A stretch of DNA of 45,216 bases from Anaerolineae bacterium (GTDB lineage: Bacteria; Chloroflexota; Anaerolineae; Anaerolineales; RBG-16-64-43), in contig PLND01000042.1 in the NCBI GenBank assembly GCA_003141675.1, forward strand, positions 529-45,744, written 5' to 3'. This document shows, one piece after another, positions 17,302-34,572 of the stretch. Numbering within the stretch: position 1 is the first letter of the stretch; each line of letters opens with the position of its first letter. Below the pieces are notes generated by a model. It did no database searches, was not told the origin of the DNA, and saw only the letters and a list, made by a program, of their open reading frames with translations. A program made the translations under genes and the position numbers.

Positions 17302-17332
17302 GCAGGGAGTATAAACTACGATCGCGCAGGGC

Positions 17333-17535
17333 CGACCCAACCTCACCCCTCAATTCCCTCCCCTTTCCTGTGCGGTGACCGACCCAACCTCACCCCTCAA
17401 TTCCCTCCCCTTCCCAGTGCGCAGGGCCGACCCAACCTCACCCCTTTGTCCCCTCCCCTTCCCATACTGGGAAGGGGAGGGGACTAGGAAGACATCCATA
17501 AAGGAAAAATTTCCTGGAGAGGGGCTAGGTTGGTC
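17333..17535. repeat. Three direct 47-48 bp units capped by a perfect hairpin and an inverted terminal copy
   Basis: CGACCCAACCTCACCCCT starts at 17333, 17380 and 17428, each followed by ccctccccttt or ccctccccttccca. The third copy runs into CCCCTCCCCTTCCCA-TAC-TGGGAAGGGGAGGGG (17450-17482), a 15-bp perfect stem with a three-base loop. The right end AGGGGCTAGGTTGGTC (17520-17535) mirrors the left unit. This is the same family as the complete 109-bp element at 23403-23511, here with its left half triplicated. Confidence 0.8.
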
Positions 17536-21489: not shown

Positions 21490-23409
21490 ATGCCTTCTTC
21501 GCATTTTTCCCTGCTGACCGACGACGACCTGTACCTTTTTAATGAAGGCTCTCACGCCCGTCTGTACCGCAAACTCGGATCCCATCCGGCGGAGGTTGAC
21601 GGGAAGAAAGGGACGTACTTTGCCGTCTGGGCGCCGGATGCGGAGGGGGTGTCGGTTATCGGCGAGTTCAATGGATGGGACGGCGGAAAACACCGCCTGA
21701 CCCCGAAGGGAAACTCCGGGATCTGGGAGGGATTCCTTCCCGGGATCGTCCCCGGAACGATGTACAAATATTTCGTCCGCTCACGGTACGGCGGATACCG
21801 GATGGATAAAATCGACCCCCTGGCATTTTATTTCGAGGTTCCGCCGCGAACGGCTTCCATCGTTTGGGATCTGACGTACGCCTGGAACGACCGGGAGTGG
21901 ATGCGGGCCCGGGCCGAAACCGAAATGCATAAACAACCGATGGCGATCTACGAACTTCATCTCGGCTCCTGGCACCGCGTCCCCGAAGAAGGGAACCGGA
22001 TGCTGTCCTACCGCGAGCTGGCGGATCTTCTGCCTGCTTACGCCGAGGAAATGGGTTTTACCCACGTCGAGTTTCTGCCGGTCACCGAACACCCATTTTA
22101 CGGATCCTGGGGTTACCAGACGACCGGTTACTTCGCGCCCACCAGCCGCTACGGGCCGCCGCAGGATTTTAAATACCTGGTTGACGCCCTCCACCGCCAG
22201 GGGATCGGGGTCATTCTGGATTGGGTGCCCTCGCACTTCCCCTGCGACGACCATGCGCTTGGTTTCTACGACGGGACCCATCTCTACGAACATTCCGATC
22301 CGAGCCAGGGGTTCCATCCGGATTGGAAGTCCTACATCTTCAACTACGGACGCCGGGAAGTCCGTTCGTTTCTGCTCAGCAGCGCCACGTTCTGGCTCGA
22401 CGAATATCACGTCGACGGATTGCGGGTGGATGCGGTGGCCTCGATGCTGTACCTAGATTATTCCCGCAAGAAGGGCGAGTGGCGGCCCAACATTTACGGC
22501 GGGAACGAAAACCTGGACGCGACATCGCTCTTGCGCACGTTTAATGAGGACGTCTACCGCGAGTTTCCGGGAGTGCAGACCATCGCCGAGGAATCCACGG
22601 CCTGGCCGATGGTCTCCAAACCCACATTCCTGGGCGGATTGGGGTTCGGTTTCAAGTGGGATATGGGCTGGATGCACGACATGCTCACTTACATCACCCT
22701 GGATCCCGTCCACCGGCGGTTCCATCAAAACGATCTGACCTTCCGGATGCTGTATGCGTTCACGGAGAATTTCGTGCTTCCGCTCTCGCATGACGAGGTG
22801 GTCCATGGCAAAGCCTCGCTGCTGAGCAAGATGCCCGGCGACGACTGGCAGAAGTTCGCCAACCTGCGGTTGCTGCTGGGTTATATGTACGCCATGAGCG
22901 GCAAGAAATTGTTGTTCATGGGGGCGGAGTTCGGCCAGCGCGGCGAATGGAACCACGAGGAGAGCCTGGAGTGGCATTTGCTGGCGTACGAGCCGCATCA
23001 AGGGGTGCAGCACTGGGTGCGCGATCTGAACCGGTTGTACACAGGCGAGAAGGCGCTGTACCAATTGGATTGCGAGCCGGCGGGATTCGAATGGGTGGAT
23101 GCCGGCGACGCGGAATCCAGCGTGATCAGTTGGATCCGCAAAACGCCGGACGACGGCTCTATGATCCTGGTCGTGTGCAACTTCACTCCCGTGCCGCGCA
23201 CCGGGTATCGGGTGGGAGCGCCGCGCGGAGGGTTGTGGCGTGAAATGCTCAACAGCGACGCCGCCGTTTACGGCGGGAGCGGAGTGGGGAATGCCGGCGG
23301 GTTCGATGCCGAACCGGTTCCATACAACGGTCGGCCGTTCTCGCTCAATTTATCTTTACCGCCGCTCGGGATCTGCTTTTTTAAGAATGAAAATGGAGAG
23401 CAGACCTAA
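21490..23409 (+). CDS. glgB: 1,4-alpha-glucan branching enzyme
   Basis: 639 residues from ATG 21490. The N-terminal CBM48 (about 40-128, [22 protein letters not shown]) precedes the GH13_9 catalytic domain starting [13 protein letters not shown]. Catalytic residues fit: nucleophile Asp314 in [11 protein letters not shown], acid/base Glu367 in IAEEST, stabiliser Asp435 in LSHDEVVHG. The family creates alpha-1,6 branches in glycogen. It lacks the extra N-terminal module of the E. coli enzyme, so it is the short form. The stop TAA is supplied by the GACCTAACC terminus of the adjacent repeat element. An upstream GTG at 21448 is in frame but lacks a ribosome site; TATAGT at 21451 may be the -10 box instead. 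Confidence 0.95.
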
Positions 23410-23511
23410 CCCCTATCCCCAGACTATTTTTTAGAAGAAGAATGATAGAGGTAACCCCTTCCCCCTTCCCTTAAGGGAAGGGGGAAGGGGTATGGGGTTG
23501 GGGGTTAGGTC
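23403..23511. repeat. 109-bp MITE-like palindromic element with 11-bp perfect terminal inverted repeats
   Basis: GACCTAACCCC (23403-23413) and GGGGTTAGGTC (23501-23511) are exact inverted copies. The centre contains a perfect 36-base palindrome made of an 18-base arm at 23455-23472 (CCCCTTCCCCCTTCCCTT) and its complement at 23473-23490. It encodes nothing recognisable. It overlaps the last seven bases of glgB and provides the stop codon. The same ends, less perfect, occur at 17333-17535. Confidence 0.85.
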
Positions 23512-32466: not shown

Positions 32467-33129
32467 GTGAATAAAAGAATTGACACCCTGCGCGCGATTG
32501 CATTCGATTTCGACGGCGTGATCCTGGAATCGGCCGATATAAAAACCCAGGCGTTCATGGCCCTGTATGCGGCCTTTCCGGAATGCCTGCCGGCGATCCG
32601 CGAGTACCATGTGAGCAACGCGGGCATTTCGCGCTACGTGAAGTTTGAATATATCCAGACAAAGATCCTCGGCCTGCCCTATACGGACCGGGATCGCGCG
32701 CTCCGGAGCGCGGAATTCGAACGGCTGACCCACGAGCAGATCCTCCGCTGCCCGGAAGTGAAGGGCGCGGCGGCATTGTTGCGGGGTTTGAAAAACCGGG
32801 TGATACGGATTGTCGCTTCCGGGACGCCTCAGGACGAACTGCGGATAATCGTCGCCGGCCGCGGCATGGCGGGCTGGTTCGAAGAAGTCTGGGGCACGCC
32901 GCTCACCAAACCGGAAATCCTGCGCGATGTGCTGGCGCGCCACCAGCTCTCTGCCGGCGGCGTGTTGATGGTCGGGGATGCGATGAACGATTACCAGTCT
33001 GCACAGGAAACCGGAGTGCGCTTTCTGGCCCGCGAAACGGGATCGACCTTTGCGGGAATGACGGTTGACAAAGTGCGTGACTTGGGAGAGATGGGGGAAT
33101 GGCTGGAAGAAACAGACGATAGACCATAG
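32467..33129 (+). CDS. HAD-superfamily phosphatase (beta-phosphoglucomutase/Gph type)
   Basis: 220 residues from GTG 32467 with GAGGA four bases upstream; an upstream in-frame extension is non-conserved. FDFDGVILES is motif I (nucleophile Asp14, Asp16), IVASGTPQ is motif II, LTKPEIL gives the Lys and VGDAMNDYQSAQ is motif IV. A cap domain lies between motifs I and II. Beside a cytidylyltransferase it probably dephosphorylates the sugar or acid phosphate before CMP transfer, as KdsC or the N-acylneuraminate 9-phosphatase do (inference). The last residues DDRP and the stop codon TAG are provided by the heptad repeat arm that starts at 33115, so the native C-terminus may have been replaced. Confidence 0.88.
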   Translation: MNKRIDTLRAIAFDFDGVILESADIKTQAFMALYAAFPECLPAIREYHVSNAGISRYVKFEYIQTKILGLPYTDRDRALRSAEFERLTHEQILRCPEVKGAAALLRGLKNRVIRIVASGTPQDELRIIVAGRGMAGWFEEVWGTPLTKPEILRDVLARHQLSAGGVLMVGDAMNDYQSAQETGVRFLARETGSTFAGMTVDKVRDLGEMGEWLEETDDRP

Positions 33130-33159
33130 ACCATGGACAATGGACCATCGACCATGGTC
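33115..33159. repeat. Left arm of heptanucleotide repeat pair flanking the S23 gene
   Basis: Six successive 7-mers of the form NGACCAT: gacgat, agaccat, agaccat, ggacaat, ggaccat, cgaccat. The fourth unit deviates as GACAAT. The right arm at 33652-33690, read in reverse complement, has the same order and the same deviation at the fourth unit. The arm begins inside the HAD gene and supplies its stop. Confidence 0.8.
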
Positions 33160-33253
33160 ATCCAGGACGTCTCACTAAAACAGGTAAAAACGCTTTTCAT
33201 GCGCGTGGTATCATCTATCCGTACCCATGGAATCAGCAGTAAAAGGGGGCTAT

Positions 33254-33634
33254 ATGGCTTTCAAGTTCGAGAATCTCGAGGTGTGGAATATATCACTTGA
33301 TTATCTCGATTATGTGTACCAATTGGCCGACCGTCTGCCAAAGGAGGAAGTGTACAATCTTCTAAGTCAATGGATCCGAGCGGCAACTTCAATCTCGCTC
33401 AATATCGCCGAAGGATCTACGGGACAATCCAATCCCGAGCAAAATCGATTTCTCGGGTATGCCATTCGTTCGGTAGCTGAATCTGCGGCATGCTTCCAAT
33501 TGACTCAGCGCAGAGGATTTATAAAGGATTATGTTGCGTCGAAAAAACTGGAAGAGCAGACGGATAAATTGGTCCGGAAACTGCAATCTTTTCGAAAAGT
33601 GCTTCTCATGAATTCGAAAGCCACGAAGCCATAG
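33254..33634 (+). CDS. Four-helix-bundle protein of the S23/bAvd family
   Basis: 126 residues from ATG 33254 (MAFKFENLEVWNISLDY), with AAAGGGGG upstream; an in-frame ATG at 33227 is less likely. The pattern E-N-L-E-V-W...Y-x-L-x-x-x-L-P-x-E-E...Q-x-x-R-A-x-x-S-I-x-x-N-I-A-E-G (RAATSISLNIAEGSTG) is the hallmark of the four-helix-bundle family found in 23S rRNA intervening sequences and as accessory (Avd-like) proteins of diversity-generating retroelements. No reverse transcriptase or template repeat is nearby. Its bases look AT-richer than the neighbours, and the gene sits between inverted heptad-repeat arms, so it was probably inserted into the glycan operon. Function unknown. Confidence 0.87.
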   Translation: MAFKFENLEVWNISLDYLDYVYQLADRLPKEEVYNLLSQWIRAATSISLNIAEGSTGQSNPEQNRFLGYAIRSVAESAACFQLTQRRGFIKDYVASKKLEEQTDKLVRKLQSFRKVLLMNSKATKP

Positions 33635-33651
33635 AATGATCAAGGTTTTTC

Positions 33652-33690
33652 GTCGATGGTCGATTGTCAATGGTCGATCGTCCATCGTCC
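33652..33690. repeat. Right arm of heptanucleotide repeat pair
   Basis: Reads GTCGATGGTCGATTGTCAATGG then TCGATCGTCCATCGTCC, i.e. heptads complementary to those at 33115-33159. The GACAAT unit (here as ATTGTC) is at the same place in the series. It ends about 30 bases before the wzm start and seems to separate that gene from any native ribosome site. Confidence 0.8.
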
Positions 33691-33720
33691 GTATCTTGGA
33701 ACCCAGGGTTGTGTAAATAA

Positions 33721-34572
33721 ATGGAATCTTCGCAAAGCGACTTCACCAGCCCGCCAACCGATATCGCCCCGTCGAAGGGATGGGTCAGTCTGCGGCTGCG
33801 CGAACTTTGGGAATTCCGCGAACTTTTGTATTTTCTCACTTGGCGGGATATCAAGGTGCGCTACAAGCAAACCGTCCTCGGGGCGGCATGGGCGATCTTG
33901 CAGCCTTTCATGACCATGGTCGTCTTCAGCCTGTTCTTCGGCCGATTGGCACACATTTCCAGCGGCAGCAGTAACATCCCCTATCCCATCTTCAGTTACG
34001 CCGGATTGGTCCCTTGGACCTTTTTCGCCTACGGGCTGGCGCAATCATCGAACAGCCTGGTGGGCAACGCCCAACTGATCAAAAAGGTATTTTTTCCCCG
34101 GCTGGTTGTGCCGATTGCCAGCATTCTTTCCGGATTGGTGGATTTTGCCCTGGCGTTTATCGTGCTGTTGGGGATGATGCTGGTTTTCGGAATTGCGCCG
34201 ACGATCAACGTGATATTTTTGCCGTTTTTCTTGCTGCTTGCCTTTATCACTGCGCTGGGTGTGGGGCTGTGGCTCTCGGCGCTCAATGTGGAATATCGCG
34301 ACGTTCAGTATATGGTTCCTTTTCTGGTCCAATTCTGGATGTTCATCAGCCCGGTGGCTTATCCCAGCAGCTTGCTGAGCGGGCCGTGGAGAACCTTGTA
34401 CGGGCTCAACCCGATGGTGGGAGTGCTCGACGGATTTCGTTGGGCGCTCCTGGGCAGCACCGGAGCACCAGGGCCGATGATCGGACTCTCCATCATCGTG
34501 GCGATCTTGATCCTGATATCGGGCGCTTTTTATTTCCGGCGCATGGAACGCAATTTCGCGGATGTGGTGTGA
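33721..34572 (+). CDS. ABC-2 type polysaccharide export permease (Wzm/TagG-like)
   Basis: 283 residues with about six membrane helices. The N-terminal cytoplasmic stretch LRELWEFRELLYFLTWRDIKVRYKQTVLGAAWAILQPF is the well-known entry motif of Wzm/TagG/KpsM permeases. The last helices end with YFRRMERNFADVV, also typical. It exports undecaprenyl-linked glycans across the cytoplasmic membrane together with the ATPase encoded immediately downstream (2-base gap). No clear Shine-Dalgarno precedes the ATG, which may reflect the cassette insertion directly upstream. Confidence 0.93.
   Translation: MESSQSDFTSPPTDIAPSKGWVSLRLRELWEFRELLYFLTWRDIKVRYKQTVLGAAWAILQPFMTMVVFSLFFGRLAHISSGSSNIPYPIFSYAGLVPWTFFAYGLAQSSNSLVGNAQLIKKVFFPRLVVPIASILSGLVDFALAFIVLLGMMLVFGIAPTINVIFLPFFLLLAFITALGVGLWLSALNVEYRDVQYMVPFLVQFWMFISPVAYPSSLLSGPWRTLYGLNPMVGVLDGFRWALLGSTGAPGPMIGLSIIVAILILISGAFYFRRMERNFADVV

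Follow-up and report, generated by a model that had tools for sequence, protein, structure and literature searches.

The window, by which is meant the whole stretch of 45,216 nucleotides analysed here, holds between a HAD-family hydrolase gene and a wzm-like ABC permease gene a short S23 gene framed by inverted arms of repeated heptanucleotides. This raises the question of whether such an arrangement is a mobile cassette, as the original prediction made from the letters had it, and of which part the S23 protein would then play in its movement. S23 genes, which encode four-helix bundles, are annotated very often but have no assigned function, and bacterial intergenic heptamer repeats have long been without an origin. 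S23 ORFs lying between inverted repeats are known within the 23S rRNA of Coxiella and Leptospira, where a selfish or mobile nature has been proposed for them (PMC4990558), and heptamer repeats are also known already (PMC4679880, PMC4692102).

The S23 cassette of the window

The S23 gene (33254..33634, + strand) encodes a protein of 126 aa, its start being best placed at 33254 (MAFKFENL...) in agreement with the start of its homologues, another in-frame start lying at 33227. Its predicted membership of the S23 family was confirmed by profile matches to TIGR02436 (91.1 bits for a cut-off of 24) and PF05635 (23S_rRNA_IVP, 88.6 bits for a cut-off of 33.8), and its predicted AT-richness by a GC content of 45% compared with 59% in both the window and the HAD gene. 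The 5' arm (33107..33156, + strand) is made of an outer end, AAGAAACA, followed by six heptamers of formula GACNATN (33115-33156), and the 3' arm (33648..33697, + strand) of the inverted NATNGTC heptamers, again six, with the outer end CGTATCTT. Over 46 nt (33107-33152 and 33652-33697) the arms are inverted repeats with 85% complementarity, and period-7 arrays were found by TRF at 33114-33155 and 33650-33689. From outer to inner the units read GACGATA, GACCATA, GACCATG, GACAATG, GACCATC and GACCATG in the left arm and, as reverse complement, GACGATG, GACGATC, GACCATT, GACAATC, GACCATC and GACGAAA in the right arm; the odd GACAAT that had been noticed at the same position on both sides is indeed the fourth of six units in each.

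The upstream HAD gene (32470..33123, + strand) receives its final codons and its stop from the 5' arm, as had been proposed, and the downstream wzm-like gene (33721..34572, + strand) starts about 24 nt past the 3' arm. In G004, a genome of the same family, the HAD gene ends differently and overlaps wzm with no sequence in between, representing an empty site, and in G001 and G003, which belong to another genus of the family, the cassette is found at the same HAD/wzm place. The original prediction had named, as speaking against a mobile cassette, that relatives always carry gene and arms at this position; they do not. Since G001 and G003 hold the cassette at the same place, the window copy is not a recent one. 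The tetranucleotide TGGA present next to both outer ends was considered as a 4-bp duplication and rejected, and no target duplication is claimed at the window because TGGA is not conserved in G001 and G003.

Other features of the window were noted. The motif GTGGTATCATCT (33205-33216), 5' of the S23 gene, is largely kept in the G001 and G003 orthologues (L125 and L121) and its surroundings are not; judging from this conservation it may be a promoter element. At 23403-23511, CCCCTTC-type units make up a different hairpin without S23, of perfect and imperfect inverted repeats in which 19-nt perfect arms (23454-23491) are nested in 22-nt arms. At 17324-17484, a GC-rich unit of 47 bp is repeated three times in tandem with a perfect 17-bp hairpin at its end, and its wording resembles that of the 23403 repeat (GACCYAACC...CCCTTCCC).

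Arms and their units change with the S23 protein

S23 genes are present in 31 of the 41 genomes of the window's order, some of them with 10 to 22 copies. The arms were surveyed in one sample of 75 S23 loci, taken from other genomes and in the main from Bacteroidota (plus Chloroflexota, Methylomirabilota and Thermodesulfovibrionales), and in a second one composed of representative loci and 60 fetched S23 copies from the window's order, an arm being called when an inverted pair scored above the 99th percentile of shuffles. Such pairs were found at 122 of 142 S23 loci spanning several phyla, compared with 17 of 710 control windows, which had the same geometry and were taken from other parts of the same loci. 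Self-similarity at lags of 7, 14 and 21, and to a small extent of 8, was raised solely within about 100 bp flanking S23, and the dominant period of the 122 armed loci was 7 in 102 and 8 in 19, one locus having none and no other period occurring. The arrays generally comprise about four to six heptamers, or octamers in some clades. An unusually long one, of about 20 GACNATN units, precedes the S23 gene of a Flavobacterium MAG (L049, 2789-2960), showing that the arrays can expand. The motif GGCCGATGG is frequent at the loop-side end of the arms (L121, L125 and the hairpins of G001 and G003) and, as far as its position tells, may be an inner boundary motif of the array.

The units themselves differ from one S23 copy to another even within a genome, the copies of G039 being flanked for instance by ATGGATN, ATCGCNN, TTCGNTA-like and GTGTCAN units. 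Units were therefore compared between loci with unrelated neighbours solely, the 5' arm of one being set against the 3' arm of the other. The proportion of pairs with alike units rose with S23 protein identity, from 7% below 40% identity to 64% at 50-60% and 82% above 70%, these pairs being non-independent and the gene neighbourhoods having been matched by simple protein comparison. Within the window's order, 78% of the 32 pairs with at least 60% protein identity had alike units compared with 10% after permutation, a value reached in 0 of 5000 permutations. Below about 50% protein identity the similarity of units is gone; a plain rank correlation between protein and unit distances within the window's order is near zero because the signal is restricted to close protein relatives, above about 55% identity, and the binned and permuted test was used in its place. 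The period also follows the protein, period 8 being clustered in S23 protein clades (0.84 vs 0.33 permuted, 0 of 1000 permutations). Arms and protein change together. Unit and period covary with protein kinship and, consequently, the letters of an array as well as its spacing can be predicted from its S23 protein.

These results bear on the idea that the arms are slippage repeats independent of S23 into which genes fell by chance. Tandem heptamers are indeed common in bacteria (PMC4692102, PMC4679880), but the arms are inverted, matched in unit at each locus and co-occur with S23, with which both unit and period covary, so that this explanation has next to no credibility and the arms cannot be regarded as simple repeats unrelated to S23, the other outcome named in advance as contrary to the prediction.

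Movement of S23 elements and their dispersed hairpins

S23 elements are mobile, being discrete insertions that move between sites. In addition to the HAD/wzm place, empty and filled versions of the same site were found on cyanobacterial plasmids with flank identities of 85-97%. At the TraM site, Nostoc C052 and N. edaphicum carry an S23 element, two C057 plasmids have an empty site and ATCC 53789 has a hairpin without S23. Picosynechococcus 7003 has an element at the cmr2/cmr3 junction and 7002 has none there; the same holds at the nrdA/nrdB junction for N. edaphicum, which is filled, and Calothrix NIES-4105, which is empty. In a three-gene cluster, pNsp_a and pNsp_c carry different S23 elements, the former at the first junction and the latter at the second, other plasmids being empty there. 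The pNsp_a element (~418 bp) is matched at 78-81% over 411-419 bp in Aulosira and Trichormus/Scytonema plasmids, the match corresponding exactly to the element and the flanks being unrelated. In another family, an S23 cassette is present in two congeners (G006 and G019) at a place where a third (G032), past the same stop codon, has just a short hairpin built of a different unit. A decayed S23 remnant (L293, 1195-1340, Nostoc C052 plasmid pC052_E) was also seen at the same plasmid site as an intact Trichormus copy.

Target duplications of 5 bp, located between stop and start codon, were read at the three cyanobacterial sites where the flanks permit it (GTAAT and TTCTA exact, TAATG/TTATG 4 of 5). 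The empty/filled pairs of the TraM, cmr and nrd sites have altered junctions and no clean duplication, and across 121 mostly old loci there was no excess of duplications (20.7% vs 19.4% permuted), so that the 5-bp claim rests on the three sites. The search for target duplications that the original prediction called for was thus successful on cyanobacterial plasmids, the old site of the window being unreadable in this respect, and the prediction of a mobile cassette is supported for the family of elements as well as at the window's own place. No chromosome was seen to carry near-identical S23 copies at more than one site, and activity is for this reason considered to be low.

A further suggestion had been to look for other copies of the whole arm-S23-arm unit. 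No second S23 copy was found by genome search in the window's own genome (G000), but the GACNATN unit occurs there at 14 array sites beyond the S23 locus, mostly as short hairpins without S23, often located a few nucleotides past a stop codon, their loops being unrelated and about 10 to 260 nt long. Four of these 14 sites are common to G003, and at one other, G001 keeps the identical stop codon but no array. The three family genomes that have this S23 at HAD/wzm contain 33 (G000), 31 and 65 exact three-unit GACNATN arrays, compared with 0 and 0 in the two family genomes lacking this S23 (72% and 89% complete), and a reversed-pattern control gave zero. Likewise, the ATCGCNN unit has 41 matches in G005, whose S23 sits between such arms, and 0 in the window's family. 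In this family the hairpins occur just where the cognate S23 is. Their origin as deletion remnants was considered and rejected: the loops share nothing with the S23 element, and the hairpins are therefore not simple deletion derivatives. We infer that S23 acts on them in trans, and they would then behave as non-autonomous derivatives of the S23 element.

In its cyanobacterial relatives the S23 element displays the traits of insertion sequences and MITEs, namely terminal inverted repeats, target duplication and empty sites, S23 being the sole protein gene inside it. The chief rival of an active role for S23 is that the element is a MITE-like passenger of an ordinary transposase recognising the arms, with S23 as mere cargo or as its own regulator. 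The terminal inverted arrays, the 5-bp duplications and the S23-less hairpins all resemble a MITE family, and S23 lacks a catalytic fold. The units, on the other hand, differ among the S23 copies of one genome and track the S23 protein, and one transposase is inadequate because dozens of unit sequences covary with S23, which makes this reading an unlikely one.

The position of the elements relative to genes points to another alternative, in which S23 would be a TRAP-like RNA-binding regulator forming a ring on heptamer arrays in intercistronic mRNA hairpins, with the dispersed hairpins as its targets. The 5' arm starts at a median of 1 nt from the upstream stop codon (10 nt or less in 72 of 115 loci) and the 3' arm ends at a median of 8 nt before the next start codon; crude gene calls put S23 on the strand of both its neighbours at 111 loci and on the strand opposite to both at 4. 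The window transcript is predicted to fold with both arms in one stem (z -4.9), S23 is under purifying selection (dN/dS 0.04-0.13 in pairs with measurable dS, the G001 orthologue being interrupted by a stop), and the hairpins often lie close after stop codons, all of which would suit such a regulator. Against it, mismatches in the arms show no excess of G-U over A-C (132 vs 167), and no locus-specific compensation was found among same-site orthologues, indicating conservation of a unit pattern that a protein reads, rather than of the stem as such. Antisense copies exist, clear-cut ones being found on plasmids, and the insertion into a CRISPR array together with the short target duplications points to DNA. 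As a full account this alternative is doubtful indeed; a role at the RNA level is possible and would be compatible with movement.

Two CRISPR-associated copies are described here for their location. In a Thermodesulfovibrionales MAG, a GTCCATA-armed S23 element is inserted in a spacer towards the end of a CRISPR array with 22 repeats (L032, 504-2530). On a Picosynechococcus 7003 plasmid, an S23 element (L269, 1951-2378) separates cas10/cmr2 from cmr3 in a type III-B CRISPR operon, PCC 7002 being without this element.

A model for the S23 protein and its relation to known systems

The AF2 model of the window S23 (pLDDT 93.4) is a four-helix bundle that superposes on XCC0516 (2gsc, five chains in the entry) with an rmsd of 1.1 A and a TM of 0.89, as well as on BT_0352 (2rld). 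Superposition on the Avd protein of diversity-generating retroelements (DGR; 8ube, 4dwl) is weaker, with a TM of 0.7 and a sequence identity of about 10-13%. Neither the model nor these comparisons revealed a catalytic domain or fold in S23, and a separate DNA-cutting partner is needed for that reason. The Avd-like fold and the sense bias could be taken to suggest a retro-element in which a reverse transcriptase makes copies of the S23 hairpin RNA, in the manner of bAvd and the DGR enzyme; no match to RVT_1 (PF00078) was found in G000, G001, G003, G005, G027 or G039, the last of which has about 22 S23 copies. A retro-element is consequently highly improbable for these genomes, barring a very divergent reverse transcriptase, and a requirement for reverse transcription in trans appears unlikely.

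Taken together, the RAYT/REPIN-like pattern, the lack of a catalytic fold and the preservation of the unit over the stem lead us to propose that the S23 element is a miniature transposon-like element in which S23 serves as specificity factor for its own array and cutting is carried out by a separate enzyme, a reading to which a probability of about 0.6 is given. S23 would recognise its array by sequence and by the 7- or 8-nt spacing, and its ring, presumably a pentamer matching the array, would hold the two ends or a hairpin together. It would then recruit a separate cutting enzyme, of host or foreign origin, which would insert the element through a 5-bp staggered cut at stop/start junctions. 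The tie between S23 and the arms is one of co-variation; S23 would be the factor that reads the arms and probably binds them, and is a putative part of the mobilising machinery, for which the original prediction had allowed S23 or a factor elsewhere. Both the catalytic partner and the pentamer-array match are likewise putative.

More tentatively, and at somewhat less than even odds, S23 elements may constitute a new class of DNA mobile elements, present in several phyla, in which a small, non-catalytic helical bundle would read a clade-specific heptamer or octamer array by its sequence and spacing, each subunit taking one unit, and guide insertion into stop/start junctions, where 5 bp are duplicated; the intervening sequences (IVS) of rRNA would be its rRNA-resident branch, and many bacterial heptamer repeats its relics. 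The tie between S23 and the repeats offers a joint and testable explanation, which would give the protein a binding target and the repeats a maker, and the many natural pairs of S23 protein and repeat are material for reading a recognition code. The open-access full texts searched hold nothing joining S23 to heptamer arms, subscription papers lying outside this search, so priority is not certain.

Among known systems, DGR Avd (PDB 4DWL, 8UBE) shares the four-helix-bundle fold with S23 and differs by its low identity and by the reverse transcriptase that is unmatched in the window's genome. The short tandem heptamers of cyanobacteria, such as the TAACTGA repeats (PMC4679880), are also intergenic arrays often adjoining start or stop codons, but the paper describing them has neither S23 nor inverted arms enclosing it ('S23' and 'four helix' have 0 occurrences). 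REPIN/RAYT systems (PMC3116915) have in common with S23 elements dispersed extragenic inverted-repeat hairpins, each flavour being tied to a linked, usually single-copy gene flanked by the same repeat, and hairpins sharing the S23-flanking motif are dispersed in this manner (14 G000 sites, 31 and 65 matches in two relatives). Here, in contrast, the protein is a four-helix bundle and not a Y1 transposase, the repeats are tandem heptamers and not single REP palindromes, and the S23 elements themselves change sites. A parallel in gene content is the 23S rRNA IVS, an S23 ORF between terminal inverted repeats able to pair, with a GC content below that of the host, a sporadic distribution and a proposed mobile or selfish nature (PMC4990558). 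The window copy sits between HAD and wzm and not inside a 23S rRNA gene, 20 S23 loci of its order gave no Rfam match and none an rRNA location, and S23 elements separate protein-coding genes, reside on plasmids and, in one case, interrupt a CRISPR array, with 7/8-mer arms specific to S23 clades, S23-less copies and 5-bp duplications. Excision from the RNA by RNase III is a further mark of an IVS, towards which the window copy has a predicted stem (z -4.9). The S23-bearing intervening sequences of rRNA would in this way be widened to a general class of selfish elements residing in operons, plasmids and CRISPR arrays.
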